DNA of 64,000 nucleotides, taken from the NCBI GenBank assembly GCA_039583875.1, contig CM077164.1, positions 68,541,628 through 68,605,627 on the forward strand, written 5' to 3'. This DNA is from Platanthera guangdongensis. Its lineage: Eukaryota; Streptophyta; Magnoliopsida; Asparagales; Orchidaceae. The translations under genes were made by a program, and so were the position numbers. Below are positions 7,070 to 61,776 of this stretch, in pieces (the first letter of the stretch is position 1; each line of letters starts with the position of its first letter). The notes under the pieces were generated by a model. The model was not told where the DNA came from. It saw only the letters and a program-made list of their open reading frames with translations, and ran no database searches.

Positions 7070-7320
7070 CAACGAATTTTTCAAAGTTCGTCGAACGGAG
7101 ATCGACGAACTGGGAAAAGTTCTAGAGATATTCGTCGAACGGAGAACGACGAATATCTCTGTGAGTGAAGTTATTTTCATCAAACGGAGATCGACGAATC
7201 TGCTTCAGAAAAGTTCGTCGAACAGAGATCGACGAAATGTTTTCAAATCTTCTGACTAAGCTCGACGAATTTTTTAACTGTAAAATATTTCGTCGACCTC
7301 AGATCGAAGAATTCTTTATT
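7070..7320 (+). repeat. A-family inverted-repeat (TTCGTCGA/TCGACGAA) array between pol and the extra ORF
   Basis: This stretch holds a series of perfect or near-perfect short inverted repeats that share the loop ACGGAGA. Examples are 9-bp arms GTTCGTCGA (7086-7094) and TCGACGAAC (7102-7110), and 14-bp arms at 7124-7137 and 7147-7160. Further copies lie near 7180-7200 and 7217-7236. The same motif recurs in the 3' LTR of this element (about 19500-19970). It sits where Sirevirus B has its GTGTCGACAC spacer array. It may act as a promoter or enhancer for the extra ORF. Confidence 0.8.
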
Positions 7321-8396
7321 TTTCTCTTAATGGAGTTTGTCAATTCATATTCTGAAAAATCTTATATCTAGGTTTTTGTTCGACCTCCATCCCACGCTTT
7401 CAGTTCCATTGCACTTGATCTCTCTTGTTTGTTGCAGGCGCACTCATGGCAATTCCCGCATGCAGTCTTGGAGTCATGAAGTTTGATAATGGTTTTGTTA
7501 TAGATTTTGAGTTGTTTCAACACTCGGATCCTATCTTCCTGGAAATTTTGAAACTGCATGAAGATCACCAGTTGAAGAATCTCATGACCACCAGAATAAA
7601 GATAGCCAGCGCAGAGATCAGAGAATGGGTTTACACTTCCTCCACCATAGATGAGAACACCATGACAGGAAAAATATCGGGTAATGAAATATCTCTTACC
7701 CCCGCAGTTTTAACAGACATTTTTGGATTAACAAATGGTGAAGAAGAACTGGAGATTGACAGTGATGAATTTGATGAAATGCTGAATAAAATGGGTTATT
7801 CTAGAGATACACCCAACAAACTATTGAAGAAACATCTATCTGCTGAATATAAGTTTCTAGCAGATGTTGTGGGAAAAGTGTTGCTGGGTAAGCATATAGC
7901 CCATGACTACATCACTAGGCATCAATTCCTGATGATGTGTGCTGTGGTGAATAAGATGCCTGTAAATTGGGCTAAGATTATGTTTGAGATGATCAGGAAA
8001 AAGAACACCAAGAAGGAGGTATGTTTTGGAAGAATTCTGAGAATCTTCCTTCAGGAAAATACTACTGAATCTCGGATCACACCGACATATTCATTAATTC
8101 CTCCAAGTGGATCACTTGTGCCCTCTTTGGCAGGTGGGAGAGGACCATCACCAAGCCATCCAAGGCTTTTTCCTCTTCCTCTAGGACTTCTGAGAGTACA
8201 AGGGATGCTCCAGCCACTACCCACCCTAATGAAGATGCTCCATCTTCTCTTCCACCACCTCCAGACATCCAAAGTTCATCTCAAGTGGTACACCAACTCC
8301 CCTCACTAGTTCACACCACAGTCCACACTCCTACACCTCCATCATCCCCAGTACATCCATTACAAACACATATTCACTTTCATACCTCACCTCCAT

Positions 8397-8502
8397 CCCA
8401 ACATGGTACACCAATTCCATCACAACATGGTACACCAATTCCATCACAACATGGTACACTAATTCCATCACTACATGGTACACAAATTCCATCACCACCC
8501 TT
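8397..8502 (+). repeat. 24-bp coding tandem repeat (QHGTPIPS) in extra ORF A
   Basis: Four to five copies of a 24-bp unit, read as an 8-residue peptide QHGTPIPS with small changes (LHGTQIPS), lie in the Pro/Ser-rich part of the extra ORF. The period is a multiple of three, so copy changes keep frame. I see no counterpart in the B-family ORF. Confidence 0.85.
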
Positions 8503-8905
8503 ATCTCCACTATCACCATATTTGGCTGATATTCCCCTTTACAATCTGTCATCCCTAAAATCATTCAATCTGCTTTCATCCCCCTTCATACTCCTTCCCC
8601 AGATGAACCAATGCAAGACTTTCTCCCTCCTCCTCCTCCATCATCTTCCATCCACCCTTCTATCTCTACCGAGTCGCCTCCTACATTCCTGACACTGGAC
8701 CCCTCCATCATTCCACCTCTTCTAGCACTTCTCACTCCCCTCCTCAAAACCCTCATAGCAGAGGCTATTTCCCCTCTTGCTACCTCCATATATTCATTTA
8801 CTGCTCAAATCTCTGCTCTCTCCACCCCTCCTTCTTCAGTCAGTTGCCTGCCTCTAGTACCCACTGAAACCAGGTAGGGGGAGATACTCTATGAAGAAGT
8901 AACAA

Positions 8906-8981: not shown

Positions 8982-10160
8982 TGATTTGTTTGATTTCATT
9001 AATTTTACTGAATCTGTTATGGATCTGGATGAGACAATCACAGAGGAAATAAAGACGGTTGGTGATTATATAATAAATCCCACAATAGATGTTGAGAATT
9101 TGTTGAAAAGTTTTGATACAGTTTACTTAAATTCTCGTCCAGACTACAACATAAAGTCATCCATGGCTATAGTTCCTTATACCTCCCCAATAAGCCCCAA
9201 AGTTGCCAAACAACTCAAGGCTAGCTTTGCTATTATAGAGGCTCCTGTTATTCCATCTCCAACAAGAGTTGATTCCCTTATTACTTCATCCCCTACCAAA
9301 GTCATCTCTGCTCCAACATTCATTATGGATGATAGCCCCATGCCTGATCTTGATGAGTTGATCATGTCTGATATTGAAGAAGAGAATAAATCAGTTGTTG
9401 AAAGCATTGATGTATATAGTTCCCCAGCTCCAGCTCCAGCTCTTCCTCCAGCTCCTCCTCAGGCTGAAAAGTCTATTGATAAAAATGTACTAAAAGCCAT
9501 TCATGCTTTATATGATTCTCCTCAAGGATCTTCTGATGATGCAGATGAGGAAGAAGATTCTGATAATGAGCCCAAAAAAAGTCTCTAAGAAGAGGAAATC
9601 TCCTCCACCTCCTGCCCCAAAGCCAAACCCAACACATGATACTACATACTATATTCTCAGAAATTATCCATACAAGGTCATGCCAGCTTGGATGTGGCTG
9701 TTGAAGAATCAACAGAAAGATAGGAAGAAAAGCAGGAAGTACTCACCTCCTCCATAGAGATACAAGAAAGACCCTCCTCCTCATCCTCCACCTGCTGCTG
9801 GTGCTTCAGGCTCTTCATCTTAGAGGATGACCCAATATCAAACCTATCAGAGGTAGCAGGGTAGATCTTCTTCTTCTGGAAGCAGCCAGCATAGGCACTA
9901 TTCTTCAAGCAGGCAACAGCAACATCAACATCAACAGCAACAGCAACATCTACAACAAACTACAGAACATCAAAAGGCTAAAAGCTCAAAGAGACCTGAA
10001 TCTCCTCCTGTACCTTTTGAGGACCCAGAAACAGCTACTACTGCAAGGATGGCCAGGTTTTAATAATTGGTTGGCATATCTATGATTAACAAAGCCAAAG
10101 CTGAAGGGAAGGATCCCTCTGAATATACAACAATGTCCAAATATAGGAAGGTGGAACTAA

Positions 10161-10165: not shown

Positions 10166-10890
10166 TGTTGATGCATGAAAACACACAGGGAGTCGGGAAC
10201 CACCAGCTAACAGTTCGAGCACCGGGGGAAAGAAGGGAAAAGAGGAGACTGTTAAGTAGTCGGTTTCTAGCGGTCGTAGCTAAAGGACATAAAAAGAGGC
10301 CGCTGGCAGCGGCAACAGCAGAGTTCGCCTGTCGCGGCTTAAATGCCACTCCTGCGACGGGCTTCCTTTATTTAAAGTGAGAAAACAGTTACACGAAAAG
10401 AAAAAAGAGGAAGCCGGCCGGATTGCATGCCGCAAAACACTAGACTTGAGACCGCAGCTCTTAACAGGGAGCTCCTGGATACAAGTCAGCGGTCTTGGGG
10501 AGTGCACCCTCCCCTATTTATAGGCTCGGGGGCTGCCCAAGCGGAAGGGCTAAAGTTAGGCTGCCCGGGGTACAGGAGAACCGGTCAGAGGTGAGGTGAA
10601 GCAAATGAGCAGAAACGAGAAAGGAGGGAAGCCGCGCGGTCTGGCGGATTCCTCCTGGCGAGCTGACTGTCTGGATCCTGGCCTTGTCGCTGAGCGGGGC
10701 TGGCGCTAGCGGCGGTCTGACATGGAGACCGCCCGACTTCGGTGTTGACCAGACGGGTTGATCTGAGATGCAGCTAGCCGGAGAGGCCGCCATCTGGTGA
10801 CCGCCCGATTCGGGAGACTTGGCGGCTAGAAAGATCAGGCTGCCCAGTCTGGAAAGATACGTGAACAGGTCGCGGATTCCGGGCTTAACA
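10166..10890 (-). repeat. Left (3') LTR of the Tat element
   Basis: The LTR is 725 bp long, starts tgttgatgcatg and ends gggcttaaca, and is closely matched by 18171-18902. On the element's own strand it begins TGTTAAGCCCGG and ends ATGCATCAACA, the usual TG...CA ends. Confidence 0.9.
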
Positions 10891-10905
10891 TAATCCCCAC
10901 ACATT
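10891..10905 (-). other. Putative polypurine tract of the Tat element
   Basis: Read on the minus strand, the sequence next to the left LTR is AATGTGTGGGGATTA, a short G-rich tract directly before the 3' LTR start. It supports the minus orientation, though it is weaker than the Sirevirus tracts. Confidence 0.5.
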
Positions 10906-11077
10906 TAAGTTCCGAAAAAACTTCGAAAATGTAGAACTAAGCCGGAGACCGCGACTGCCCTATCGGTGTCTTTAAAATCCCCTGGCCCTTGACATTCTTC
11001 AAGATATCTGCCAAACCACGGGTCTCTACTCGCCCCTTGCGGTCAGAATCCTTCAAGCTGACGCGGACATTCACAGG

Positions 11078-13059: not shown

Positions 13060-13084
13060 GCGACTTGAGAGATCTAAGCCGTGC

Positions 13085-13495: not shown

Positions 13496-13522
13496 TTGAG
13501 TACTGTACCTCCACTGGTTTTC

Positions 13523-13530: not shown

Positions 13531-13564
13531 GAGCTGACCCAGAAGATTTCATCACAAGACAGAA

Positions 13565-19499: not shown

Positions 19500-19970
19500 C
19501 GACATTCATCGAACTCAGCTCGACGAAAGTCGTGATCATCTCGACGAACTCAGAGAAAATTCTCTGAGTTGAGGTAGACGAACTTAGTTCTCAAGTCGAC
19601 GATTTCTGGATACTCTACTTCAACATTCCCAGTCCAGAGTCATTTCTCTGAATTCCAGTCGACGAATTTATGTTCTCAGCTTGACGAGCTTAGACCATAG
19701 TATTAACAAGTTTTATCAAGTAACAGTTAGCAGTTCTCAGGTCGACGAACTTAGTTCTCAGGTCGATGATTTCTGGATACTCTACTTCAACATTTTAAGT
19801 CCAGAATCATTTCTCTGAACTCTATTCGATGAAGTTAGATTATAAGCTTGACGATCATAGTGCACATAATTGGCAAGTTTCTTCAGAAAGCAGCTAGCTG
19901 TTCTTAGGTCGACGATGTTGGATCTCAGGTCAACGAACAACAATTATAGACGAATTTTGTTCTTTGCTCA
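19500..19970 (+). repeat. A-family TCGACGAA/TTCGTCGA motif array in U3
   Basis: Repeated motifs such as gtcgacgaact, ctcgacgaactcag, ggtcgacgaacttag and decayed forms (gtcgatgat, ttcgatgaag) occur every 30-60 bp, with larger duplicated blocks (about 19570-19640 and 19740-19815). The core matches the array between pol and the extra ORF of this element. Confidence 0.75.
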
Positions 19971-21071: not shown

Positions 21072-21076
21072 GATCT
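21072..21076. other. Target-site duplication (gatct), left side of Sirevirus B
   Basis: The 5-bp gatct precedes the element start and is repeated right after its end at 34202-34206. This fixes both ends of Sirevirus B. Confidence 0.92.
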
Positions 21077-21958
21077 TGAAAGATATGGTACCTAAACACC
21101 TAGAGGGGGGGGGGGTGAATAGGTGACCTAATCCTTTTTAAACTTAAATGGCAGCAATCAGTTATATCACAGAATACTAACTATTTTATCACAGCAAACA
21201 CACAGCATGCACAGCAACAATGACAGCACAGCACAGCATACACAGTGGTTTATAGTGATTCCCCAAGATATGGGTACATCCACTTTCCCCCTTCGCCTAT
21301 CTAGCAGTGTCCTAGATTCGGCCAAACTCCTCCACTGTCTCAGAACCCAAATTGGTTCCTACACCTCAGGCCCAAAGCTTACAACTCAGCTTTATCCCAA
21401 AGCCTACACTCAGCCAATCAAGGCCTACACTCAGCCAACCAAGGCCTACACTCAGCCAACAAGGCCTACACTCAGAGATCTCAATCTCCTACACTCAGGC
21501 TCTCAAGCCCTACCCTCAGCCTTTATAATTATAGGCTTACAATTCACTCAGATCCAAAGGATCCTACAAGATAAAAATGTATTACAAATATTAACTCAAC
21601 AACTCAGAAATAAAAGAGGGGAGTTGAGAGTTTCTTGATGAGTTCTTGGAAGAACTCAGCTGGATTCAATCTGACTTAGCTTTCTTCAAAGCTTCTTGAG
21701 TAGAACTGAATAAGACTGAATCCTCCTACAGTAGTTCCTTGACCTCTGCCACTTAAGATCCAGAATGAATCTGAATCCTTCTTCTCAGCCTAGTTCCACA
21801 GGCTGATTTCTTGGATGGAGCCCTCTCTCTCCAACTTCTTAGATCTGCACTTGGACTGCAAGATCTTCTTGTGTTGATACTCTATGTACCACTTTAATAA
21901 CTTGTTCTTCAACAATGTGATCAACTCAACAACAACGTTTCTGTAAACTGTATGAGCC

Positions 21959-21966
21959 TATTTATA
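21959..21966 (-). promoter_or_regulatory. TATA box in 3' LTR of Sirevirus B
   Basis: TATAAATA on the minus strand (plus tatttata in gcctatttataggcc) lies about 160 bp downstream of the palindrome array. The same sequence occurs at 32985-32992 and 55136-55143. Confidence 0.7.
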
Positions 21967-22124
21967 GGCCTTCTTCATGGTAAACGGCTGGTCCGGTCCA
22001 TAACTGACTTCTGATATCTCTGACAGGTGCTGTAGACCGGCTGGAACGGCAGCTGTCAAGTCATCCAGTCATTTCTTGAAAATCTCTAACTGTCTGAAAG
22101 TGAGTCGAGACTTTCTGTCTTTAA

Positions 22125-23031
22125 GTGTCGACACTTATAGTGCAAGTGTCGACACATGCTGTGTAAGTGTCGACACAAGTCTACAAGGTGTCGACACAAC
22201 TCCTTGTATGTCTCGACACAGATTCTTCTTCAGGTGTCGACACTGAAATTGAGTGTCGACACAAATACTTGATCTTCTGTCTCTTTACTGAATTCTTCTA
22301 AGTGTCGACACATCACCTTTGTGTCGACACATCTTCATGTGTTGTAACTGTTAAGTGTCGACACTGCTTCTTGGTGTCGACACATAGTCTTTAATGTCGA
22401 TACTTGCTGAGTGTCGACACAGCTCCTTGTGTCGACACACCTTCTTTTGTTGAGACTTCAGCTGAGTGTCGACACATTCCCTTAGTGTCGACACTTGTAC
22501 TTAGAATAATTTTGTTGATCTTTCTGATCTTTGCTAAGTGTCGACACAGCTCCTTGTGTCGACACTTTCTTCAAGTGTAGAGTCTTTAGCTAAGTGTCGA
22601 CACATTGTGCTGGGTGTCGACACTTACTTCATGTGTTGACTCTTCTGGTTGTGTGTCGACACATTGTGCTGAGTGTCGACACTTACTTCAAGTGCTGACT
22701 CTTCTGTTGAGTGTCGACACATTGTTCTGAGTGTCGACACTTTAACTTAGTCTCTGCAGACTTTTGCTGAGTGTCGACACAGCTCCAAATGTCGACACTT
22801 TCTGGTGTAGACAAGCTTCACTGGGTGTCGACACAGCTCCTTGTGTCGACACTTTCTGTCTGCACTTTTCTTCACTGAGTGTCGACACAGCTCCAAGTGT
22901 CGACACTTTCTGTCTAGTGTCGACTCTGCATCCCAGGTGTCGACACAATGACTCCAAGTGTCGACACTGCTTGTCTGGGTGTCGACACAAGTCTTCTTAA
23001 GTGTCGACACTTTCCCTCTGGGTGTCGACAC
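22125..23031 (-). repeat. GTGTCGACAC palindrome array in U3, 3' LTR of Sirevirus B
   Basis: I count about 32 perfect copies of the 10-bp palindrome in about 900 bp, plus one-base variants. They come largely in pairs 8-10 bp apart (for example 22538-22547 and 22556-22565, spacer agctcctt), with pairs about 25-35 bp apart. The array lies just upstream of the TATA box, an enhancer-like position. Confidence 0.92.
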
Positions 23032-23176
23032 ATGGACTTAGAAACTTTTTGCTTCAGTCCAGTGATTACTTAACCTGCACAAGTAAACTCAACATACATC
23101 AAATACATTATGATGTATATCATTGAGTTGGGTGAGGCTTCTTCAAATCAGGTACATTTGACCAATGTACCCAACA

Positions 23177-23191
23177 ATCTCCCCTATTTGG
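23177..23191 (-). other. Polypurine tract of Sirevirus B
   Basis: On the minus strand CCAAATAGGGGAGAT directly precedes the 3' LTR start TGTTGGG. Confidence 0.88.
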
Positions 23192-23476: not shown

Positions 23477-26269
23477 CTATTTCTGATCAGGTTCCTTGAT
23501 AACTATTCCCTTGCCAGCTTGAACTTGAGCTTTGACAGGGGCATCAACAGTTTCAGCATCAGCAGGCTTCTTGCCTTTTAGATCTTTCTTTTTGAGTTCT
23601 TCTGCCTTGATCTTCTGCCTCTCAAAATAGTGATATGGCTTAGGAAAGTACTTGCTAGGCTCCACTGCAGTAGGAGGTAGCTTTCCCATCTTTGCCTTCC
23701 TTCTATAATGAACTATTGCTTCCTGCCTGATCTCATGTTTTCTCCATTCTGCTTCAGAAAACCATTTGTTCCTGTCATGAGTATTGTCCTTGGCAGCTTT
23801 CCAGGCAGTTAAAATTATATTCCTAGAGGTAGGGCTCCACTGTTCAAAGTCTGGCCTTTGTTCTGCTTGTTCCCTAAACCTCTTCTTAGACAACCTTGTC
23901 TCTTCCTCCTTCTGTAATGCCTCTTGCATGGCTTCAGTAATAGGCTGAACCACTTTATCCAAAATAACATTAGACTTTCCTTCAGTTGGGCTATACATCT
24001 GCTGAATGTCAGCTTGCACCATGTCAAAATCTGGTGGAGGATATATCACCTGAGCTACCTCTAGTTGCTCACCTCCAAGATATGCAGGTTGAATTCCAGA
24101 TTCAGCCACATTGTCATCATCACAAGTGGAGGATGGCCCAGTGTAGCTCTGATGGAATTTGATATCCACTTTGCATGGTCAGAGCTAGCTTTGACTAAAA
24201 CTCTCTCCCCCTTTATGACTTCTCTAGCCATATGATCTCTGACATCATCCTTTTGAAATCTTATTTGACTATCCAAGTATCTGATCCCTCTTTAAAGAAT
24301 GGTTTGAGCTTTTGAAGTTGTTCAGAGATGGCTTTCTGGGAGGCTTGGATTGCAGACTTAACAGCAGAAATTTCTTCTTGAAAGGCTTTATCAAATTCAG
24401 CTTTGATAGTAGCAGAAGATGTAGAAGGTCAGCAGCCTTGTTCTTCAACTCAGTGACTATAGCATTATGGGAGGCAGTCAAATTGTCATTCATTCTTAAC
24501 TGATTTTCAAGAACATATCCTTGTTTCAATGCTATGTCATCCACTTGTTCTTTGATCTTCTCTTGGTGTGTTGCCAAATACACCATTGCATTTCCACCTT
24601 TATGGAAGCATTCATTCATCTCCTTCTTGTTAAGGTTCATTTCAAACCTTATAGACTTTATATCTTGGGCCAGATCAAATTGTAATGACTTCTGCCCTTC
24701 ATCCACATAAGCCTCTATAGCTTTTCTCTGTTCATCCAGTTTTATCTGCATTGCAATCATTAATGCACTATAATCAACAGTTGGAGCTTGTTGAACTATA
24801 GGCTGTGGGGCTATAGATTGCAGAGCTTTCTTATAACTCTGACTTCTCCTTTTAAAGACATACAGTTTCTTCTTCTTTGCCCTAGCACTCTCCTCATCTT
24901 CAGAGGCAGAAGTGCTGGCTATGTCAACCCTATCCTTAGGGCTTGGAGGTCTGTCAGCTTGCACATCAGGTGCCTTCTCATTTTCTGGCCTTAAAGGCTC
25001 TTCCATAACTTGCACTTGCTCCCCCTCAACAGCAGCATGATCTTTTTCAGCAGCATCCTTGTCCATGTCAAAATCTGCTTGATCTAGATTGAGAAATAAA
25101 TCTTCCATGGTGTATTCAGGGGGTGAAGAAGCTGGAGACATTCTTTGCTCTTCAACTACTGGATCAGGAATCTTTTCTTGTACAGCAGATGTGTCTTCTA
25201 TAACAACGTCTGGAGCTTGACTAGGCAGCTGAGTTTGCTGAGGAACATCAGACAAATCAGCATCTTCTTTAAGATATTCTAAAGTATTTAGGTCAGTGAG
25301 TACCTCTTGTATGATGGTGGTGGCTTGCTCACTGTCCAGTGTAGAGGGTTCTTCTACAACTGGAGGATCCCCCTGGATCTCAGCAATCTCTTGAGCAGCA
25401 GGAGATTTCACTGCAGGCTCTTCCTCATGCTCATCTAGAGTGAAGACAACATGTTCTTCACTCCCAGAACTGCTAGTGGACACTTGTTCCACAGGAGCTG
25501 TTTTCCTTTTCTTCTTTGGAGGAGTGTCTTTCTCAGTAATTGTCTTCTCTGGGGTTGGCATTTCCTTGGACAACACCCTGTCCCATCTTGAAAAGATCCT
25601 TTGATCCATCTTCCTCATGCGGTTTATCTTGCTGCCTGCAGTAGTATTCATTACCTCTGGTATGGTACCAGCTAGGTAGAGACTAATGATTCTGCCCAGA
25701 TTGGGCTTCTTCAAGCTCTCCTTAATCTTCTCATAAACAACTATAGACCAGTCTGTTTTCAGAGTGAAGATTATCCTTGTCATGATTCCAAACATATAGG
25801 CAGACACTCTGTCATGCCCTCCAGGCTTACTGAGTAAGACCTTTCCAACAATCTCAGACATGAATTTTCCTTGATTATTCATGCCTTTCCTGTTAAATAC
25901 AGAACCAATCTTCATCTTTGGATCAAGTCCACACCAGGTTAGAGCTTCCCTGGTCTTGGATGCAGTAATTTCTTCTTCATCTTGAGTTTTTGGTAGCTGG
26001 AGCACCTTCCTCAGATTTTTAGGTGAAACCTTGACCTTAGTTCCATGAACTCTGGATTTGATTCTGTATCCAGATTCATCTACTGCAGCTCCATTAAGGA
26101 ATTCAAGAAGCTCTTTCTTCCATATCTTAGTAGGTTTGGAAACTAAGTACTCTAACCCAGAGTCGGCGACTAGGGTTACTACTGCCTGAATTTCTTGATC
26201 GGCATCGTCGAACGCGCCGCGCAAAAGCTCATATCCTTCGTTAACGTTCTCCTCAAGCTTAGGTGCCAT
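23477..26269 (-). pseudogene. Extra ORF downstream of pol (Sirevirus B), one frameshift
   Basis: ATG 26269 follows a TATA box and palindrome array. About 600 codons are open before a frameshift near 24430; the rest reads on to a stop at 23477, giving roughly 930 residues. The N-terminus (IWKKELLEFLNGA, RVHGTKVKVSPKNLRKVLQL, FMSEIVGKVLLSKPGGHDRV) has the plan of the Transposase_32-type plant transposon domain (tentative). Next come an SV40-like nuclear-localisation motif PPKKKRKTAP, long acidic stretches, a second basic run (RAKKKKLYVFKRRSQSYKK), helical segments and a Lys-rich tail. I see no signal peptide or hydrophobic membrane span. Comparable Sirevirus ORFs are usually labelled envelope-like. 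The nuclear motifs and the acidic regions fit a nuclear regulator better. Confidence 0.78.
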
Positions 26270-26303: not shown

Positions 26304-26750
26304 GTGTCGACACAGTAGTTTTGGTCTCGAAACTTTGAAAGCGTGTCGACAAACAAAGACAGAACCCTATTTATACCTTTCTAATTTTGAAGATGAACAG
26401 GCGGGACAGCTAACTTAAAATGTGTCGACACTGGCAATAAGTGTCGACACTGACTTATAATGTCTCGACACATATGTGTCGACACAAGTTTAGTCAACAG
26501 ATTTTATGTGTCGACACTTGGTTATGTGTCGACACAACATAACTCGACACATTGTCGAGACTTTACTTAGAAAATTCTGAGTAAAACATAAGTGTTGACA
26601 CCATATTGGATGTGTCGACACCTACTTGTCATGTGTCGACACTAACATTCTGAAGTGTCGACACCAACATCCTGGATGTGTCGACACCTTTTTCCTGAAG
26701 TGTCGACACCACCATTCTGTGTCGACATAGACTTGTCTATGTGTCGACAC
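26304..26750 (-). repeat. GTGTCGACAC array in the pol-extra ORF spacer, Sirevirus B
   Basis: About 12 perfect copies of the same 10-bp palindrome as in the LTR, plus variants (tctcgacac, gtcgacat), lie between the pol stop (26783) and the extra ORF start (26269). The spacers here are more variable than in the LTR. Confidence 0.9.
26368..26375 (-). promoter_or_regulatory. TATA box before the extra ORF, Sirevirus B
   Basis: TATAAATA on the minus strand (AAAGGTATAAATAGGG context) lies about 100 bp upstream of ATG 26269 and just inside the array. It is conserved in B2 at 61705-61712. It implies a separate transcript for the extra ORF. Confidence 0.68.
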
Positions 26751-26782: not shown

Positions 26783-29700
26783 TTACTCTAAGTTTATCAT
26801 TCCGAGTTCAATTTTGAATCTATTGAACTTAGCTTCTTCTAGGGGCTTAGTAAACATATCAGCTATTTGATTATCAGTTTTAACATATTCTAATAAAATA
26901 TCTTCTCTTTCTACATGCTCCCTAAGAAAATGATATTTAATCTCAATATGTTTTGTTCTACTATGCGATACAGGGTTATTAGCTATTGAAATAGCACTTG
27001 TAGAATCACAGAAAAGTGGAGTTCTATTTACCTGAAATCCATTAGTCCTCTAGCTGATGTTGAATCCACAGAAGTTGAGCACAGCAACTTCCTGCAGCCA
27101 CATACTCTGACTCAGCTGTGGAGATAGCCACACTGGTTTGCTTTTTGCTACTCCATGAAATTAGTCTCCCACCTAGGAATTGACAGGTTCCAGTAGTGCT
27201 CTTTCTATCCTCTTTGCATCCTGCAAAGTCTGCATCTGAATAACCTGTTAGATCAAAATCTTCATTCCTAGGGTACCAGAGGCCTAGATAGGGAGTGCCC
27301 TTTAGATATCTCAATATTCTTTTGACTGCTGTCAAATGAGACTCTTTAGGGCAGGCTTGATACCTGACACAAACACATGTAGCATACATGATGTCAGGTC
27401 TACTAGCAGTCAAGTATAATAGGAAGCCAACTATCCCTCTATACAAGGTTTCATCTACAGGTTTCCCTGCATCATCCTTGCTAAGAGACATACTTGACCC
27501 CATAGGAGTCTTCATGGTGCTGGATGAATCCATACCATACTTCATTATGAGTTCTAGGGTGAACTTGGACTGACATATGGATAAACCACTTTCAGTCTGT
27601 TTAACTTGGAGACCCAAGAAAAACTTCAGCTCTCCCATACTACTCATCTCAAACTGACCTTGCATAAGTTTTGCAAACTTTTTGCAAAGGCTGCTTTCAG
27701 TAGACCCAAATATAATGTCATCTACATATATTTGGACTAGTATGACTTTGCCTCTAGATTCCCTAAGGAATAGAGTCTTATCTATTTTCCCCCTTGAGAA
27801 CTTGTTCTCAATGAGGAAACTAGATAGGGTTTCATACCAAGCCCTAGGGGCTTGCTTTAACCCATATAAAGCTTTCCTAAGTCTATAGACATGATGAGGT
27901 AGAGTTGGATCAACAAAACCTGAAGGCTGTTCCACATAGACTTCTTCTTTAAGATTACCATTTAGGAATGCTGACTTGACATCCATTTGGTAAACCTTGA
28001 ATCCTTGATAGGTTGCATAGGCCAAGAACATTCTTATGGCTTCCAGTTTGGCTACTGGAGCAAAGGTTTGATCAAAATCAATACCTTCTTCTTGCCTATA
28101 TCCTTTAGCAACCAATCTTGCCTTATTCTTAATGATGACCCCTTGTTCATCCATCTTATTTCTGTAGATCCACTTAGTTCCTATTACATTGTGGTCTTTA
28201 GGTTTAGGAACAAGTTCCCAGACCTTGCACCTCTTGAACTGATTAAGCTCTTCTTGCATTACTTCAGTCCATTGTGGATCTTGTATTGCTTCTTCAAACT
28301 TCTTAGGTTCAACTTGTGATAGAAAGCTGGAGTAGATTGCTGCATTCATGTTTCTACTCCTGGTTTGAACTCCTTGTCTTGGATCTCCAATAATCAGCTC
28401 TACTGGATGATCGCTAAGATGTCTGTGGGCTGGAGGCATCCTAACTTCTGGTTGAACCACTTCAGCATCTGCATCATGCTGTATACCTTGGATTTCTTCA
28501 GCAATTGGCACATGTAGTTCTCCCCCTGGACAACAGCTACTGTCTTCTACTTGCTGTCTTGCAGCAGGCACTTCTTCTATAGTAAGCTTGTCCATTTTCT
28601 TTGTCAAACCTGTGGGGCTGCATACACTACTAGACAACTCATTATTAATAAGTTTAGTCTCATCAAAAACTACATGCACAGATTCTTCTACAACTTGTGT
28701 AGTCAAGTTGTAGACTCTATAAGCCTTACTATTATTGCTGTACCCAACAAAAATTCCCTCTTGGGACTTGGCAGCAAACTTAGTTAAGTAAGACTTCCCA
28801 TTGTTAAGTATGAAGCATTTGCAACCAAAGATCCTAAAATAGGATAGGTTTGGTTTCCTGCGTTTCACAACTTCATAGGGGGTCTTGTTAAGCCTTTTAG
28901 TGATGGTAGCCCTATTTATAACATGGCATGCAGTGTTAACTGCTTCAGCCCAGAAATATTCTGGCAGTGATGTATCACTTAGTAGGGTCCTACCAGCCTC
29001 TATCAAGGTCCTATTTTTCCTCTCAGCAATGCCATTTTGCTGAGGTGTTCTAGGTGAAGAGAATTCTTGAAATATTCCAAAGTCTTCACATAGTTTTGTC
29101 ATGTTATCAGACTGAAATTCAGTACCATGGTCACTTCTAATTTTGACCACTGTACTATTTAGTTCATTCTGAATTTGCTTGACAAAGCTATAAAAAACAC
29201 TAGGAGTTTCAGATTTCTGTCTTAAGAAGAACACCCAGGAAAACCTTGAGTAGTCATCTACAACTACAAAGGTATAGACCTTCCTACCTAAGCTGTGAAC
29301 TGGCATTGGACCTAAAGAGATCCATATGTAAGAGGTATAAACACCTCACAACATCTTTGTTTTCTATGCTTCTAAAGGTGGATTTAGTCTGCTTGCCCTT
29401 TTGACAAGCTGAGTAAATACCATCTTTAACACACTTAACTTGAGGACCATTCCTCACTAACTCTTTGCTAAAGAGTTTGCTAATAGTCTTGTAGTTAAGA
29501 TGGGCAAGCTTCTTGTGCCATTTGACACAATGAGAGACTGTCTCATCAGCTACAAGACAAACTGGAGAACCATTGTTCTCAACCATAATGTCTAGGCAGT
29601 AGACATTCCTCTTCCTATAACCTGTCAAAATGATCTCTTGATCACTTGACCTCTTGATATGACAACCATTTTTAACAAATGAGATATCATACCCTACATC

Positions 29701-32104: not shown

Positions 32105-32984
32105 CTTGAAAGATATGGTACCTAAACACCTAGAGGGGGGGTGAATAGGTGTCCTAATCCTTTTTAAACTTAAATGGCAGCAATCAGTTATATCACAGAA
32201 TACTAACTATTTTATCACAGCAAACACACAGCATGCACAGCAACAATCACAGTACAGCACAACATACACAGTGGTTTATAGTGGTTCCCCAAGATATGGG
32301 TACATCCACTTTCCCCCTTCACCTATCTAGCAGTGTACTGATTCGGCCAAACTCCTCCACTGTCTCAGAACCCAAATTGGTTCCTACACCTCAGGCCCAA
32401 AGCCTTACAACTCAGCTTTATCCCAAAGCCTACACTCAGCCAATCAAGTCCTACACTCAGCCAACCAAGGCCTACACTCAGCCAACAAGGCCTACACTCA
32501 GAGATCTCAATCTCCTACACTCAGGCTCTCAAGCCCTACCCTCAGCCTTTATAATTATAGGCTTACAATTCACTCAGATCCAAAGGATCCTACAAGATAA
32601 AAATGTATTACAAATATTAACTCAACAACTCAGAAATAAAAGAGGGGAGTTGAGAGTTTCTTGATGAGTTCTTGGAAGAACTCAGCTGGATTCAATCTGA
32701 CTTAGCTTTCTTCAAAGCTTCTTGAGTAGAACTGAATAAGACTGAATCCTCCTGCAGTAGTTCCTTGACCTCTGCCACTTAAGATCCAGAATGAATCTAA
32801 TCCTTCTTCTCAGCCTAGTTCCAGAGGCTGATTTCTTGGATGGAGCCCTCTCTCTCCAACTTCTTAGATCTGCACTTGGACTGCAAGATCTTCTTGTGTT
32901 GATACTCTATGTACCACTTTAATAACTTGTTCTTCAACAATGTGATCAACCTCAACAACAACGTTTCTGTAAACTGTATGAGCC

Positions 32985-32992
32985 TATTTATA
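32985..32992 (-). promoter_or_regulatory. TATA box in 5' LTR of Sirevirus B
   Basis: TATAAATA on the minus strand lies downstream of the U3 palindrome array. This copy would drive the genomic transcript. Confidence 0.72.
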
Positions 32993-33148
32993 GGCCTTCT
33001 TCATGGTAACCGGCTGGTCCGGTCCATAACTGACTTCTGATATCTCTGACAGGTGTTGTAGATCGGCTGGAACGGCAGCTGTCAAGTCATCCAGTCATTT
33101 CTTGAAAATCTCTAACTGTCTGAAAGTGTCGAGACTTTCTGTCTTTAA

Positions 33149-34056
33149 GTGTCGACACTTATAGTCCAAGTGTCGACACATGCTGTGTAAGTGTCGACAC
33201 AAGTCTACAAGGTGTCGACACAACTCCTTGTATGTCTCGACACAGATTCTTCTTCAGGTGTCGACACTAAAATTGAGTGTCGACACAAATACTTGATCTT
33301 CTGTCTTTTACTGAATTCTTCTAAGTGTCGACACATCACCTTTGTGTCGACACATCTTCATGTGTTGTAACTGTTAAGTGTCGACACTGCTTCTTGGTGT
33401 CGACACATAGTCTTTAATGTCGATACTTGCTGAGTGTCGACACAGCTCCTTGTTTCGACACACCTTCTTTTTGTTGAGACTTCAGTTGAGTGTCGACACA
33501 TTCCCTTAGTATCGACACTTGTACTTAGAATAATTTTGTTGATCTTTCTAATCTTTGCTAAGTGTCGACACAGCTCCTTGTGTCGACACTTTCTTCAAGT
33601 GTAGAGTCTTTAGCTAAGTGTCGACATATTGTGCTGGGTGTCGACACTTACTTCATGTGTTGACTCTTCTGGTTGTGTGTCGACACATTGTGCTGAGTGT
33701 CGACACTTACTTCAAGTGCTGACTCTTCTGTTGAGTGTCGACACATTGTTCTGAGTGTCGACACTTTAACTTAGTCTCTGCAGACTTTTGCTGAGTGTTG
33801 ACATAGCTCCAAATGTCGACACTTTCTGGTGTAGACACAGCTTCACTAGGTGTCGACACAGCTCCTTGTGTCGACACTTTCTGTCTGCACTTTTCTTCAT
33901 TGAGTGTCGACACAGCTCCAAGTGTCGACACTTACTGTCTGGTGTCGACTCTGCATCCCAGGTGTCGACACAATGACTCCAAGTGTCGACACTGCTTGTC
34001 TGGGTGTCGACACAAGTCTTCTTAAGTGTCGACACTTTCCCTCTGTGTGTCGACAC
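33149..34056 (-). repeat. GTGTCGACAC palindrome array in U3, 5' LTR of Sirevirus B
   Basis: It has the same organisation as in the 3' LTR, with about 30 copies in close pairs. A few copies have decayed by single changes, for example gtttcgacac near 33451 and gtatcgacac near 33510. Confidence 0.92.
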
Positions 34057-34206
34057 ATGGACTTAGAAACTTTTTGCTTCAGTCCAGTGATTACATAACC
34101 TGCACAAGTAAACTCAACATACATCAAATACATTATGATGCATATCATTGAGTTGGGTGAGGCTTCTTCAAATCAGGTACATTTGACCAATGTACCCAAC
34201 AGATCT

Positions 34207-38634: not shown

Positions 38635-40866
38635 TGAAAGTCTTATTTTCAAGACTAACTTTACACCTAGAGGGGGGTGAATAGGTTTTCCTCTTTGTTT
38701 AAGTTTTCTAATCTGGTTTTTTAGAATACAATGTCTATTGATTAGATTAAATCAGGTTTCAAGAATATTTACAGAAGACACATCAAATTTATACTGGTTC
38801 CCCAATCTTGGGTACATCCACTATCCCTCTATGCCTATCTAACAGTGTGTTAGATTTGGTTCTCCCTCCAGAACACAGCTTACAGCACCGATCCCGTATG
38901 ACCACACACAGGTCACACAGACCAACAACTTAGGCATTAAGCCAACCCAAGTCACAAAGACCTATCACCAGGCACAAAGCCAAACACAGGTCACTAAGAC
39001 CCAGCCTTTATAGTACATGCTTACAAACCCCAGATTCATAAATAATCTTTACAGAAAATAGAAATAAAGAGTGTGATGATTAGACACCAGAGCAAGCTCT
39101 GTGTCTCCTTCTTCTTGGACTGAGCAGATATCAGATCAAAGATATTGCTATTGAAGACAATATGTAGATAGGAGAATCTTTTTCAAGCAGCTTCTGTTTT
39201 CCCTGCAGAACTTGTAGGTCTGCTTGCTTCAAAACAGCTTCTGATCCTGCTGATACAGATAGGGATTGCTTCAGCTATCTCTTTCCTAGCAAGGTTCTCT
39301 GTGCAGAACAACTTCTTTAGGCTTGACGAAAATTACGAGGAAGAAGATGACGTTCAGCCGCACTTTTGCTTTCATAAAACCTTGACAAGGAATTGATTGA
39401 TTGCTCTGGGCGATTTTCTTCATTTTATTCTCAGAAGGCCAATTGAGCAGTGGGTCCCACCACTAGGATTGATGGCCGAGATTTAGCCAATTAAGCAAAT
39501 GCTTTCAATTAATTTCTACTTCAACGCCTTTTTGTTGTGAGTGGGCCCCAGCACTTAATGATGAAATATTCCTTGTTAATTGCAGAAGATAGCAACAGCT
39601 GGCCCCACCAACATCTTTGGCAGCATTTCTGCAACATTTGAATTTTGGTTGACTTTTTACTTTGCTGACGTCAGCATGACTCAGCATTTGTGGACTTAGC
39701 CAAAATTGAATCATTAGAACCAAAGAAGTTGAGTGAGTAGGTATCACTCAACGCCACAACACTTAGATAAAATTTTTCCTGTCTAGGTATTGAGCTCGAC
39801 GAACTCCGAGCTCCGTTTGACGAACGGCAAGCTCAGTTCGACGAATGCATAAAATTAGTTCAACGAACTTTAGACTTAGATCGACGAAAGTCAAAACTAA
39901 GTTCGACGAACTTCAAGCTCAGTTCGATGAACGGTGAGCCCAGTTCGACGAAGCTGAGCTCAACGAAAGCCAAGCTATCCATGCATTTGTACTTATCCAA
40001 AATTCTGCATCAAGGTGTTGATAGTATTGAGAGTGTTGTGAGAGATTGCCTCACTCAACGCTTTTTACCTTGGCAAAAATTTCTGTGCCTTGGCACTGAG
40101 AGAGTAAGAAACACTCAACGCCAAACTACTTAACAAAATTTTTTCTGTTATCTAGCATTGAGAGAGTAAGCTACACTCAACGCCTTTTGCCATGACGTTG
40201 AGGGAGTAAGCTCCACTCAATGCCAAACTACTTAACATAATTTTTCTATTATCTGGTGTTGAGTGAGTAAGCTACAATCACTGCCTATGGACTTAGTCAA
40301 ATTTTTGCTCAACATTTCTGTAGAGTTGACTGGCACAACAACACTCAATGCTTTGAGATGTATGGCATTGAGTGAGAAGACCACACTCAACACTTGTGAA
40401 CTTATCCACATTTTTAGCCAATTTTTCTAGGCTTAGACTGACTAAGCCTAACTCACAGCCTTTTGTTGTATGTCATTCAGTGAGTAGACTACACTCAATG
40501 CTTTTATACTTAGCCATCCTTTTTGGCTATCTTTCAGTTAAGCTGAGATAGTCTCAACATTATATGTTATATGTCGTTGAGTTAGTAGACTACACTCAAC
40601 GCTTTTGCACTTAGGCAAATTTCTAATAGACAATATTGAATCCATACCTCTGGCATTGAGTGAGCTTGCTCTACTCAATGTCTATGGACTTAGTTGATTT
40701 TGTGTTATGTCCAGCAACCACTTCTTATGTACACATGTCCAATCAATATGAAATGGACTAACCTGCACTCAAGAACTCAAATGCACATCAAATACAGTTG
40801 ATGTGTGTGACATTGACCTGTTTGATTTCTCACAAATCAAGGTCATTGGGAACAATGAACCCAACA
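38635..40866 (-). repeat. 3' LTR of Sirevirus C
   Basis: The LTR is about 2.2 kb long, starts on plus tgaaagtcttattt and ends gaacccaaca, with the Sirevirus acacctagaggggggtgaatagg segment near its start. Its U3 carries a family-specific motif array. gatcc at 38630-38634 would be the left target duplication; the right copy was not found because the other end is missing. Confidence 0.82.
39735..40690 (-). repeat. C-family motif array: CACTCAACGC/GCGTTGAGTG and TTCGACGAA
   Basis: About ten units pair (g)cgttgag(t/a)gag with cactcaacgc, 8-10 bp apart, for example 40175-40192. They recur roughly every 60-100 bp. A second block, 39790-39970, carries TTCGACGAAC-type motifs like those of Sirevirus A, for example agttcgacgaacttc. 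Many copies are decayed by single changes. Confidence 0.8.
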
Positions 40867-40884
40867 ATCTCCCTCTATTTAAAG
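40867..40884 (-). other. Polypurine tract of Sirevirus C
   Basis: On the minus strand CTTTAAATAGAGGGAGAT precedes TGTTGGG of the 3' LTR. This fixes the minus orientation. Confidence 0.85.
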
Positions 40885-46600: not shown

Positions 46601-48230
46601 CTATGCCAAGTTGAACATACCAAACTCAAATTTGAGGGTGTTGAACTTTGCTTCATCTAATGGCTAAGTGAAGATATCAACCGCTTGCTTATCTGTGGGG
46701 ACAAACTCAAGACTGATGTCTTCCTTCTCCACATGCTCCCTGATAAAATGATAACTTATTTCTATATGCTTAGTGCTGCGATATGAGACAGGATTCTTAG
46801 CAATAGAAATAGCACTTGTAGAATCATAGTAAAGAGGAGTTCTACATACCTACAGGTTTTAATCCTGGAGCTGATGTTGGATTCACAGCAGCTGACCATA
46901 GCAGATGCTTGCTGATATATATTCTGACTCAGTAGTGGATATAGCCATACTAGTTTGCTTCTTTCTACTACAAGAAACTATCCTTCTTCCTAAGAACTGA
47001 TAGGTTCTAGTAGTGTTTTTCCTGTCTTCTTATTAACCCACAAAATCTCCATATGAAAATCTTGTTAGATCAAAATCCCTATTTCTAGGGTACCGTAGTC
47101 CAAGATCTGGTGTGCTCTTAAGATATCTCAAGATTCTCTTTGCAGCAGAGTAATGAGATTCTTTATGGCAGGCCTGATACCTAGCACGGACACATGTGAC
47201 ATACTTGATGTCAGGCCTACTAGCAGTCAGGTATAGAAGGGAGCCAATTATCCCTCTATACAAATACTCATCAACAGGTTTTCCTGCCTCATCTTTGTTT
47301 ATAAGCATACTTGATCCATGGGAGTTCTCATGATGGGGGCATTCTCTATACCATACTTTTTGATTAGCTCCCTGGTGAACTTGGATTAGGATATGGACAA
47401 GCCATCATCAATCTGTCTTACTTGGAGTCCCAAGAAGAACTTGAGCTTACCCATGCTGGTTATCTTAAACTTCGCTTGCATAAGTTTACCAAACTTCCTT
47501 CAAAGGTTGTCATCAGTAGATCCAAAGATAATGTCATCGAAATATATCTGTACTAGGATAAGCTTGCCCTTTGATTCCCTTAGAAATAGGATCTTGTCTA
47601 TCTCCCCCCTTGAGAATTTATTCTCAATGAGGAAGCTAGATAAGTTTTCATACCAAGCCTTAGGGGCTTGCTTTATCCCTTATAGAGCTTTCCTAAGCTT
47701 ATACACAAAATTAGGAGAGTTAGGAACTATACAATCTGGTGGATGAGCCACATATAATTCCTCTTTGAGGTCCTCATTCAGGAATGCTAATTTGACATCC
47801 ATTTTGTAGACTTTGAATCCCTAATGGGAAGCAAGTGCAAGTAAGATCCTTATGGCTTCCAGTCTGGCTACTAGTGCAAAGGTCTGGTCAAAGTCTATGT
47901 CCTCTTCTTGTCTATAGCCTTGAGCGACTAGTTTAGCCTTATTCTTGACAATAATGCCATCTTGATCCAACTTGTTCCTGTAGATCCACTTAGTCCCTAT
48001 GACATTTTATCATTGAGGTCTGGGGACCAACTTCTAGACCTTACATCTCTTGAATTGGTCTAGTTCTTCTTGCATTGCTCCAATCCAAAACTGGTCCTTG
48101 ATTGCTTCTTCAAACTTCTTTGGCTCTTCTTTTGACAAGAAGCCTGAGTAGAGAGTTGTATTCATGCTCCTGCTTCTTGTCTGGACCCCATGATGTGCAT
48201 CACCAATGGTTTAGAGATCTGCTGAAAAGG
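46601..48230 (-). pseudogene. Sirevirus C pol, C-terminal half (reverse transcriptase and RNase H)
   Basis: The minus-strand reading from about 48215 encodes the reverse transcriptase N-terminal block ([32 protein letters not shown]), then KMDVKLAFLNEDLKEELYV and [13 protein letters not shown], where the usual YVDD reads YFDD. A well-kept stretch follows ([18 protein letters not shown]), then RNase H remains and a stop at 46601 after FEFGMFNLA. Many stops and frameshifts are present. At about 48215-48230 similarity to pol ends abruptly just upstream of the reverse transcriptase; no integrase follows. Confidence 0.85.
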
Positions 48231-53971: not shown

Positions 53972-54116
53972 TGTTGGGTACATTGGTTCAAATGTACCTG
54001 ATTGGAAGAAGCCTCACCCAACTCAATGATATACATCAAAATGTATTTGATGTGTTTTGAGTTTACTTGTGCAGGCTAAGTTTTTACAGGAAAGAAGAAA
54101 AAGTTTCTAAGTCCAT

Positions 54117-54978
54117 GTGTCGACACCAAGGAGCAAAGTGTCGACACTTAAGAAGACATGTGTCGACACCCAGACAAGCAGTGTCGACACTTGGAGTCAT
54201 TGTGTCGACACCAGGGATGCTGAGTCGACACCAGACAGAAAGTTTCGACACAAGGAGCTGTGTCGACACTCTGTGAAGAAAAGTGCAGTAAAGCAGTGTC
54301 GACACATAGCGGTTGTGTCGACACCCAGTGAAACTGTGTCTACATCGGAAAGTGTCGACACTTGGAGGCTGTGTCGACACTCAGCAAAAGTCAGCAGAGA
54401 CTAAGTATAAGTGTCGACACTCAGAACAATGTGTCGACACACAACAGAAGAGTGAACACTTGAAGAAAGTGTCGACACAAGAAAGAATGTGTCGACACTC
54501 AGCTGAAGACTCAACACTTGAAGAAAGTGTCGACACAAGGAGCTGTGTCGACACTTAACAAAGATCAGCAAAGTTCAACAAAATATTCTAAGTACAAGTG
54601 TCGACACTAAGGGGATGTGTCGACACTCAGCTAGAGTCTCAACAGATGTAGAATGTGTCGACACAAGGAGCTGTGTCGACACTCAGCAAGTATCAACACT
54701 GACGACATATGTCGACACCAAGAAGAAGTGTCGACACTTAACAGATTCAACACATGAAGATGTGTCGACACAAAGGAGATGTGTCGACACTTACAAGAAT
54801 TCAGCAAAATACTGAAGTACAAGGACTTGTGTCGACACACATTATCAGTGTCGACACATGAATAAGAAGCAGTGTCGAGATATAAAATCTACAACACAAG
54901 GAGTTGTGTCGACACCTTGTAGGCTAGTGTCGACACTTAGTCAACTTGTGTCGACACTTGGTCTATATGTGTCGACAC
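54117..54978 (+). repeat. GTGTCGACAC palindrome array in U3 of Sirevirus B2
   Basis: Dozens of perfect or one-off copies lie in paired arrangement upstream of the TATA box at 55136. Some units differ in order and number from those in B, showing turnover inside the family while the 10-bp motif itself is kept. Confidence 0.9.
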
Positions 54979-55135
54979 TTAAAGACAGACAGTCTCGACA
55001 CTTACAGACAGTTACAGAATTTTCAAGAACTGACTGGATGACTTGACAGCTGCCATTCCAGCCGGTCTACTGCACCTGTCAGAGTTGTCAGAATTCAGTT
55101 ATGAACCGGACCAGCCGGTTACCATGAAGAAGGCC

Positions 55136-55143
55136 TATAAATA
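55136..55143 (+). promoter_or_regulatory. TATA box of Sirevirus B2 LTR
   Basis: TATAAATA in the context aaggcctataaatagtcc lies about 160 bp downstream of the palindrome array, as in Sirevirus B. Confidence 0.75.
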
Positions 55144-55987
55144 GTCCTATACTGTCTACAGAGAAAAGGTGGTCAAAATTCAGATCAAGTGATTGTCCAA
55201 GTTGTTCAAGTAATTCAAAGAAGATCTCGCTATCAAGTGAAGATCTAAGAAGTTGGAGAGAGAGAGCTCCATCCAAGAAATCAGCCGTTGGAACCAGGCT
55301 GAGAAGAAGGGTTCAGATTTATTCTGAATCTTAAGTAGCAGAGATCAAGGATCAACTGCAGAAGGGGTCAATCTTATTGAGTTCTACATTCAAGAAGCTT
55401 TGAAGAAAGCCAAGTCAGATTGATTTCAGCTGAGTTCTTCCAAGAACTCATCAAGAAACTAACAACTCTCCTCTCTTGTCTCTGAGTTGCTGAGTTAATA
55501 TTATTGTATTCATATTTTCTTGTAGGATCCTTTGGATCTGAGTCTTGTAAGCCCGTAATTATAAAGGCTGAGTGTAGGAGATTTAAATCTCTGAGTGTAG
55601 GCCTTGGTGGCTGAGTATAGGCCTTGGTGGCTAAGTGTAGGCCTTGGTGGCTGAGTTTAAGCTTTGTGAAGAAGCTGAGTTGTAGGGCCTTGGGCCTGAG
55701 GTGTAGGAACCTGTTTTGGGGTTCTGAGATAGTGGAGAAGTTTGGCCGAATCTAGTACACTGCTAGATAGGTGAAGGGGGAAAGTGGATGTACCCAAACC
55801 TTGGGGAACCACTATAAAACTGTGTGTCTACTGTGTGCTGTGATATTCTGTGAATGCTGTGTGATTGCAGTGTACAAATTGATATAACTCTGAGATAAAA
55901 TCTGATTGCTGCCTTAAAAAGTTAAAAAGATTCAAGTCACCTATTCACCCCCCCCCCTCTAGGTGTTTAGGTACAATAACTTTCAAG

Positions 55988-61100: not shown

Positions 61101-61304
61101 ATTGCACATAATCCTGTTTCTCATAGTAGAACTAAACATATTGAGATAAAATATCATTTTCTTAGTGAGCATGTAGAGAAAGAAGATATTTTACTAGAAT
61201 ATGTTAAAACAGATAATCAACTAGCTGATATGTATACTAAGCCCCTAGAAGAAACTAAGTTCAATAGGTTTAAAATTGAACTAGGAATGATAAACTTAGA
61301 ATAA
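58132..61304 (+). pseudogene. Sirevirus B2 pol: protease, integrase, reverse transcriptase, RNase H
   Basis: Protease DSGCSRHMTG and GAG-pre-integrase regions are followed by the integrase core ([18 protein letters not shown], then AERNNR where relatives have AERKNR). The zinc CSACQKGK is intact here, unlike in B. Reverse transcriptase: [13 protein letters not shown] and YVDD at 60359-60370. RNase [35 protein letters not shown]. It ends GMINLE at TAA 61302-61304. Stops include those at about 58538, 58698, 58870, 60432, 60812 and 61033; several look like TGG to TAG or CAG to TAG. The domain order and spacing to the spacer array match Sirevirus B. Confidence 0.9.
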
Positions 61305-61330
61305 GTTTATGGAAATGGCTAAGTCAAAAG

Positions 61331-61776
61331 GTGTCGACACACAGAGATCTCTGTGTCGACACAGAAAATTGGTGTCGACACTCTAGGGAAAAGGTGTCGA
61401 CACATCTAGGAAGTTGGTGTCGACACTTCAGAAAATTAGTGTCGACACATGACAAGTAGGTGTCGACACATCCAAGGTGGTGTCGACACTTAAGTTTTAC
61501 TCAGAATTATCTAAGTAAAGTCTCGACTAAATGTCGAGTTATGTGGTGTCGACACATAAACAAGTGTCGACACATATAATCTATTGACTAAACTTGTGTC
61601 GACACATATGTGTCGAGACATTACAAGTCAGTGTCGACACTTATCGACAGTGTCGACACAATTTAAGTTAGCTGCCCGCCTTTTCATCTTCAAACCTAGA
61701 AAGGTATAAATAGGATTTTGCCTTAGTTTGTCGACACGCTTTCAAAAGTTTCGAGACCAAACTTGTGTGTCGACAC
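61331..61776 (+). repeat. GTGTCGACAC array in the pol-extra ORF spacer, Sirevirus B2
   Basis: About a dozen perfect copies plus variants lie between the pol stop and the extra ORF, as in Sirevirus B. The last copy lies between the TATA box and the ATG. Confidence 0.9.
61705..61712 (+). promoter_or_regulatory. TATA box before the extra ORF, Sirevirus B2
   Basis: TATAAATA in gaaaggtataaatagg lies 99 bp upstream of ATG 61811. It matches the box at 26368-26375 in both sequence and distance. Confidence 0.7.

Follow-up and report, generated by a model that had tools for sequence, protein, structure and literature searches.

Sirevirus copies at the locus

The stretch of DNA analysed here (the window) comprises 64,000 nucleotides of contig CM077164.1 from the 4.25-Gb genome of the orchid Platanthera guangdongensis, and contains parts of four Sirevirus copies, A, B, B2 and C. 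Copies A, B and B2 carry an extra open reading frame (ORF) after pol, of the kind called envelope-like, to which we refer as ORF3; the sequence between pol and ORF3 is here termed the linker. An earlier note on this DNA proposed that arrays of short palindromes, found in the U3 part of the long terminal repeats (LTRs) and again in the linker, are specific to each family and are read by the product of the extra ORF.

Copy A lies on the plus strand. Its pol ends at 7036, ORF3 starts at 7446 and the 3' LTR at about 19309, the copy being split by a nested LTR element (10168-18902) whose end repeats are 91% alike and both contain TATAAATAG. Copy B, on the minus strand, has a 3' LTR at 21075..23180 that is 98.0% identical to its 5' LTR (32105..34206). 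Domain matches place its pol, with integrase core and reverse transcriptase (RVT_2), at 27042..29306. Copy B2 (plus strand) has its 5' LTR at 53972..55987 and is truncated by the window end. Copy C (minus strand) is represented by a pol fragment at 46602..48212 and a 3' LTR whose ends, placed by eye, are 38690..40867; its pol is closer in DNA sequence to that of B (75% identity) than to that of A (67%). Neither an ORF3 match nor a palindrome array was found in the C linker, which bears a 5-kb insertion (41094-46380) that by eye is a solo LTR with target-site repeat TAGCA.

Bousios 2010 (PMC2829016) gives AGGGGGAG polypurine tracts as a Sirevirus hallmark, with several expected before the 3' LTR. 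B has two such tracts, C three and B2, as far as the window contains it, four; in A there is one outside the nested element, and a variant at its LTR. The pol of B has the domain order rve, SH3_retrovirus, RVT_2, that is, integrase ahead of reverse transcriptase as in Ty1/copia elements and as expected of a Sirevirus. Tandemly repeated units of about 86-89 bp occupy 52387-53360.

Palindrome arrays in LTRs and linkers

The B-type palindrome GTGTCGACAC occurs in 115 exact copies in the window, against 0.02 expected from dinucleotide shuffles, and all of them fall in five intervals, as the earlier note had claimed in placing the motif at both sites of B and B2. By exact count, 32 lie in the U3 of the B 3' LTR (22125..23031, minus strand), 28 in the B 5' LTR (33149..34056, minus), 29 in the B2 5' LTR (54117..54978, plus), 12 in the B linker (26304..26750, minus) and 14 in the B2 linker (61331..61776, plus). 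The corresponding claim for A holds more clearly for one site than for the other: the linker between pol and ORF3 has eight copies of TTCGTCGA/TCGACGAA (7087..7296, plus), and the array in the U3 of the 3' LTR (19520..19970, plus; ratio of observed to expected CpG 1.14) is weak, with four exact TCGACGAA and many decayed copies. The word TTCGTCGA is found 18 times in the window (0.53 expected), including four in the A LTR at 19520-19749 and, outside copy A, one at 35006 and five in the C LTR at 39796-39952. The C 3' LTR has two neighbouring arrays on the minus strand, one of CACTCAAC/GTTGAGTG at about 40660-40000 and one of TTCGTCGA/TCGACGAA at 39985-39795.

The two sites were also compared by taking the commonest 8-mer of each linker alone and counting it in the LTRs. 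That of the A linker, TCGACGAA, occurs four times in the A LTR, a number reached by none of 300 shuffles, five times in the C LTR and not at all in the B and B2 LTRs. That of the B and B2 linkers, GTCGACAC, occurs 66 times in the B LTR, 60 times in the B2 LTR and never in those of A and C.

The arrays of A, B and B2 are rich in CpG (observed/expected 0.75-2.3, against 0.48 for the whole window). Those of the B type are also very numerous in this genome: forward pairs of GTGTCGACAC 5-15 bases apart number 971,003 genome-wide, compared with one for the reversed pattern. A further CpG-rich array (observed/expected 1.60) with TCACTCGA/TCGAGTGA-type inverted repeats lies at 34950-35400, in an LTR-like stretch not assigned to A, B or C.

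Promoter signals stand next to the B and B2 arrays. The TATA-box sequence TATAAATAG is present ten times in the window (0.6 expected), five of these after B and B2 arrays and five elsewhere. Downstream of the LTR arrays it lies at 21958..21966 in the B 3' LTR (minus), 32984-32992 in the B 5' LTR (minus) and 55136-55144 in the B2 5' LTR (plus). In the linkers it is found at 26367..26375 in B (minus), about 106 bp before the ORF3 ATG, and at 61705-61713 in B2 (plus), 106 bp before it, and AAACCCTA directly precedes the ATG in both (26270-26277, minus, and 61803-61810, plus). Since TATAAATAG and then AAACCCTA stand between linker array and ORF3 ATG in B and B2, the linker array probably belongs to a second promoter, as its upstream part. 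In the A linker there is just a TATATCT-like sequence at 7363, which is kept in one A-type relative from elsewhere in the genome (L044, see below) and varied in another (L038).

Conservation of the palindromes

The palindromes of B and B2 are much better conserved than the sequence around them. Marking as palindrome any motif with up to one mismatch in either copy, B and B2 differ at 10/351 palindrome sites and 71/556 remaining sites in the 5' LTR array, at 4/341 and 72/566 in the 3' LTR array and at 2/160 and 43/315 in the linker. When the mask was slid along the B/B2 alignments the observed value was reached in 0/1005, 0/1004 and 1/481 positions.

The two LTRs of a single retrotransposon copy are identical at insertion and drift afterwards, and the B pair therefore serves as a control. 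Here palindromes (5/369) and remainder (9/609) differ alike, so that in a dead copy mutations reach palindromes and other sites at about the same rate. No difference was seen with seven of the nine mask settings. The two that deviated were those with motifs marked from the 5' LTR alone, either exact (0/280 against 14/698; 5/984 shifts) or with at most one mismatch (3/359 against 11/619; 76/984 shifts), which we attribute to only sites intact in the 5' LTR having been marked. Because the lineages differ in their spacers while the B LTR pair shows no clear difference, the most plausible reading of the conservation between B-family lineages is selection on the palindrome sequence itself.

Among five B-type copies, excess palindrome conservation was seen in all ten pairs for the linker (0 to 6 of about 500 shifts) and in nine of ten for the U3 (0 shifts), the exception being the near-identical pair L022/L023 (4/350 against 2/580). 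These pairs are not independent, and L022, L023, L025 and L026 were fetched for carrying the B motif. Among A-type copies the signal is weak: 16/109 against 53/278 (62/399 shifts) and 15/110 against 54/242 (20/446 shifts).

These figures bear on two explanations in which the palindromes are not read as DNA. The arrays might be the functionless growth of tandem repeats, their likeness at the two sites arising by copying from one to the other; the arrays do match themselves at many offsets, and two arrays per element could exchange sequence. That palindromes stay while spacers diverge, at both sites and in many pairs, with no clear difference in the LTR pair, makes such an origin very improbable. 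Alternatively, palindrome hairpins in the transcript might supply small-RNA silencing or act as decoys for it. Compared with its shuffles, the B2 linker array folds much better (z -10.8), as a palindrome array does by construction, and two papers on small RNAs and transposons (PMC5311732, PMC10760457) name Sireviruses and palindromes together in the portions available. The exact sequence is conserved, however, and none of ten two-mismatch motif copies, among those listed from the four B/B2 arrays, was palindromic again. This absence of compensation favours recognition of DNA over pairing of RNA, and we regard a role of the arrays as RNA as improbable.

The ORF3 protein

In copy A, ORF3 begins with an N-terminal open piece of 287 codons (7446..8306, plus), with a weak match to PF20167, and a further open piece lies at 8986-9588 (plus). 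B ORF3 as it stands has 666 codons (24269..26269, minus), laid out as an N-domain (residues 1-240, the region of a VANC21-like model), an acidic middle and a helical C-terminal part. The end of its frame departs from its relatives, whose matching C-terminal part sits in another open piece: that at 23477..24169 (minus) resembles the C-terminal part of the relative P0002. The first open piece of B2 ORF3 has 173 codons (61811..62332, plus).

PF20167 (Transposase_32) is matched by 12 of 13 ORF3 members at E-values up to 10, the scores being 35.5 bits for A (E 1.2e-8), 18 for B2 (0.0029) and 14.5 for B (0.034); even the best is below the gathering cut-off of 45. Neither DUF1985 nor DUF287 was among the 25 families listed of 26 matched by the 13 members at E up to 10. 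A search for VANC proteins or a solved relative found neither, the best matches, where there were any (E 6.3, 0.077 and 1.6), being to unrelated proteins, and NCBIfam gave nothing but one match at E 0.75. Protein searches returned 4, 3 and 8 overlapping homologues, those with names all from the genus Platanthera, and no ORF3 relative was confirmed in IMG/VR.

In the PDB, the structure that best matches the predicted N-domain is VANC21 bound to its target DNA (9lnj). An earlier model, based on 6 sequences, was of low quality (pLDDT 47) and did not match VANC21. A library of viral structures yielded 268 matches at E up to 10 and none at 0.001.

ORF3 also looks nuclear rather than membrane-bound. 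By Kyte-Doolittle hydropathy, the only method used for this, it has no transmembrane-like segment, the highest 19-residue means being 1.14 (B), 1.19 (A), 1.28 (P0002) and, towards the C-terminal end of P0008, 1.52. It carries KKKR and KKKK runs, which we take to resemble nuclear localization signals. A true envelope-like protein for cell-to-cell transfer, with the linker array merely its promoter, would agree with the traditional name, with the position after pol and with the internal promoter argued for in Bousios 2010; hydropathy, the basic runs and the VANC21-like N-domain predicted for ORF3 make it very unlikely.

The N-domains of A and B are homologous but diverged, with 23-24% amino acid identity compared with 38-42% for pol pieces. 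Between B and B2, the ratio of nonsynonymous to synonymous divergence (dN/dS) is 0.08 and 0.05 for the two halves of the N-domain, 0.37 for the acidic middle and 0.04 for the helical part, so that ORF3 is under purifying selection. Per 250 columns, DNA identity between the two copies stays at 0.82-0.96 as far as the linker and is lower, 0.74-0.84, within ORF3, falling abruptly from about 0.90 to 0.75 where ORF3 begins (26240 in B, 61841 in B2). Synonymous divergence (dS) is 0.29-0.42 in pol and 0.44-0.99 towards gag, compared with 0.63 in the middle of ORF3 and 1.6-2.5 in its conserved parts, near saturation and four to eight times that of pol. Since dN/dS is low and ORF3 dS far exceeds that of pol, fast adaptive change was rejected as the cause of the B/B2 difference. 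The near-saturated dS instead gives the copies the look of a mosaic, with an ORF3 older than pol, linker and LTR. ORF3 thus seems to have a history of its own while the motif stayed unchanged, and may have been exchanged between lineages as a module.

Motif and ORF3 elsewhere in the genome

Beyond the window, 26 pieces of the same genome were examined: 20 unselected, in blocks of four neighbouring 10-kb pieces from five places on contig C1, and six placed at listed matches of the B motif. ORF3 N-domains were found by tblastn in two of the 20 unselected pieces, L038 and L044, both A-type (52-68% identity to A). In their linkers TCGACGAA is the commonest 8-mer, with five copies in L038 and, tied with two overlapping words, four in L044; GTGTCGACAC is absent from both. 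Three of the six pieces placed by motif (L022, L025 and L026) have a B-type ORF3 and a B-motif linker, which says little since they were chosen by that motif. The kind of ORF3 thus matches the motif of the linker in 3/3 copies in the window, 2/2 unselected and 3/3 picked pieces.

This distribution bears on the reading we favour, at somewhat less than an even chance: that ORF3 is a nuclear DNA-binding protein with a VANC21-like N-domain, which reads the arrays and keeps both promoters active. Several observations speak against a motif private to its family. The LTR of copy C, which lacks ORF3, has five copies of the A motif TCGACGAA beside its own CACTCAAC array. In L023, 180 bp beyond a Ty3/gypsy pol, there is a 103-bp repeat (L023:4845-5185) that carries GTGTCGACAC together with inverted repeats of the ACACGCCCGTGTC type; a second copy of it is found in L024 (2959-3299). 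An A-motif cluster lies 0.5 kb after a gypsy pol in L035 and, less certainly, others lie 2-3 kb from gypsy pol matches in L042 and L045. The A-type LTR of L027 has a B-motif block (5388-5540) inside a U3 array of 13 A motifs (5115-5776), possibly an intermediate of motif change. Finally, in Bousios 2010 six further elements with the envelope-like gene (ENV) have no palindromes, and have CpG islands there instead. The earlier notion of family-specific motifs is not borne out, and copy C without ORF3, the Ty3/gypsy family and the mixed array contradict a motif private to a family through its own protein.

The 20 unselected pieces contain nine A-motif clusters, in seven pieces, five of them at pol or LTR sequence of A-type or C-type Sireviruses (L037, two in L038, L041 and L044), and a single B-motif cluster, in a distant B-type LTR (L041). 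Another of the nine, L044:6733-6952, has an unusual place, with the gag match of the L044 copia element on one side and its pol match on the other. Motif clusters are absent from copia elements whose pol is 31-48% like that of B (L028, L030-L033) and from the gypsy-pol pieces L030, L033, L036, L043 and L046. Motif-pair scans of IMG/VR found the B motif in one contig, L001, with phage-like ORFs, and the A motif in 12. GC-rich arrays similar to those of the 103-bp repeat were noticed in L035, L042 and L045.

The sharing is best explained by a host factor. In that case one or a few host transcription factors would bind the palindromes, lineages would have converged on TCGA-centred palindromes or swapped them by recombination, the linker would be a second promoter for ORF3, and ORF3 itself would have another task. 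This view accounts for the sharing of motifs by the ORF3-less C, by a Ty3/gypsy family immediately behind its pol and probably by others (L035, L042, L045), for the mixed array of L027 and for TATAAATAG after both arrays in B and B2. It is also in line with palindromes in four published elements without ENV, with their absence from six that have it, and with the argument in Bousios 2010 for an internal ENV promoter. Less readily accommodated are the association of linker copies with the extra gene, in published palindrome-bearing elements and in the copies described here, and the match to the VANC21 fold, which would be unexpected. We consider a host reader alone a real possibility, though short of probable. 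A self-encoded VANC-like protein best explains the link between ORF3 and linker, the predicted fold and the nuclear look. The two explanations are compatible, and the reader of the palindromes remains between ORF3, to which we lean tentatively, and a host factor alone, which we hold a possible but lesser candidate.

Relation to known systems

Some of this was already known. In Bousios 2010, Sirevirus RM boxes are palindromic, rich in CpG, clustered in U3 and of one consensus per element, with a TATA box after the LTR cluster. Palindrome-bearing elements with ENV have linker copies before it in nine of nine cases, those without ENV in none of four; the linker boxes were read as an internal promoter of ENV, none being identified, and what reads the palindromes and how ENV is expressed were left unsolved. 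The present copies conform: A, B and B2 have arrays at both sites and C, without ORF3, has none in its linker. They differ in the TCGA core of GTGTCGACAC and TTCGTCGA, 12 of 13 published RMs having a CGG-CCG core; this does not decide Sirevirus membership, since the published Tnd-1 also lacks it. The TATA box in the linkers of B and B2 is a further difference from the published elements, and we believe the proposed link to a protein and its predicted fold to be new. The earlier note had known of no link between arrays and ORF. That was partly mistaken, in view of the published association of linker palindromes with ENV; a literature search of incomplete coverage, and so no proof of absence, found nothing tying a Sirevirus ORF to VANC or to palindrome reading.

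The closest parallel is VANC21 of VANDAL21, an Arabidopsis Mutator-like DNA transposon, whereas here ORF3 lies between pol and 3' LTR of a retrotransposon. That system (PMC5735166) likewise combines an extra transposon gene with arrays of a short motif in non-coding parts of the same element, the arrays vary between related elements, and the extra gene diverges faster than that for transposition, as ORF3 (24% identity) does relative to pol (38-42%). The predicted fold of the ORF3 N-domain, matched to VANC21 with its target DNA, would be a further likeness. In other respects they differ. The VANC21 motif is the 9-mer YAGTATTAY in one orientation, compared with a palindrome with a central CpG here; ORF3 has no sequence similarity to VANC proteins and no DUF1985 or DUF287 match was found; and VANC target motifs are dense in their own family and rare in other transposons, unlike the shared motifs here. 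VANC proteins bind their motif and cause loss of DNA methylation, and for ORF3 such activity would be by analogy. The analogy drawn in the earlier note gains support from the predicted fold, from the selection on B-family palindromes and from the nuclear look; the idea of a motif private to its own family does not.

The Athila aORFs (PMC11728184) are also alike, as ORFs after pol of LTR retrotransposons with a PF20167-like domain and runs resembling nuclear localization signals; they belong to Ty3/gypsy as opposed to Ty1/copia elements, and PF20167 matches here are under the gathering score. In sunflower SIRE elements CG methylation is reported to drop strongly between the LTRs (PMC12844716, the available text of which does not mention arrays), an observation in keeping with the proposal.

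Our proposal is the following. The so-called envelope-like ORF3 would be a nuclear DNA-binding protein whose N-terminal domain is predicted to be VANC21-like, binding the palindromes probably as a dimer through its helical C-terminal part. In the U3 it would bind upstream of the TATA box for the genomic RNA, in the linker upstream of that for its own transcript. By analogy with VANC proteins, it would keep the two promoters active most likely through unmethylated CpG-rich arrays. Palindrome carriers without ORF3, such as C and the Ty3/gypsy elements, would be passengers on its protein or share a host reader. The broader proposition, that anti-silencing of VANC type has evolved in or been acquired by retrotransposons, with Sirevirus ORF3, and perhaps the Athila aORF domain, reading palindromes to the gain of other elements, is one we consider possible but would not call probable. 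We believe the following to be new: selection on the palindromes, gauged by comparison with their spacers and by LTR pairs; a TATA box in the linker; the ORF3 mosaic; the motif sharing with Ty3/gypsy elements; and the non-envelope character and VANC21-like predicted fold of ORF3.

The role of the plant retrotransposon 'envelope-like' gene is unproven, and a VANC-like fold would turn it into a directly testable question, requiring one purified domain and two motifs. If the proposal is true, sequence-specific anti-silencing would not be confined to one group of DNA transposons but would operate also in very successful plant retrotransposons, and motifs shared between superfamilies would represent transposons living on the regulator of another. 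The envelope-like gene of plants would then be a nuclear regulator, which would go some way towards accounting for the great abundance of arrays in this genome.

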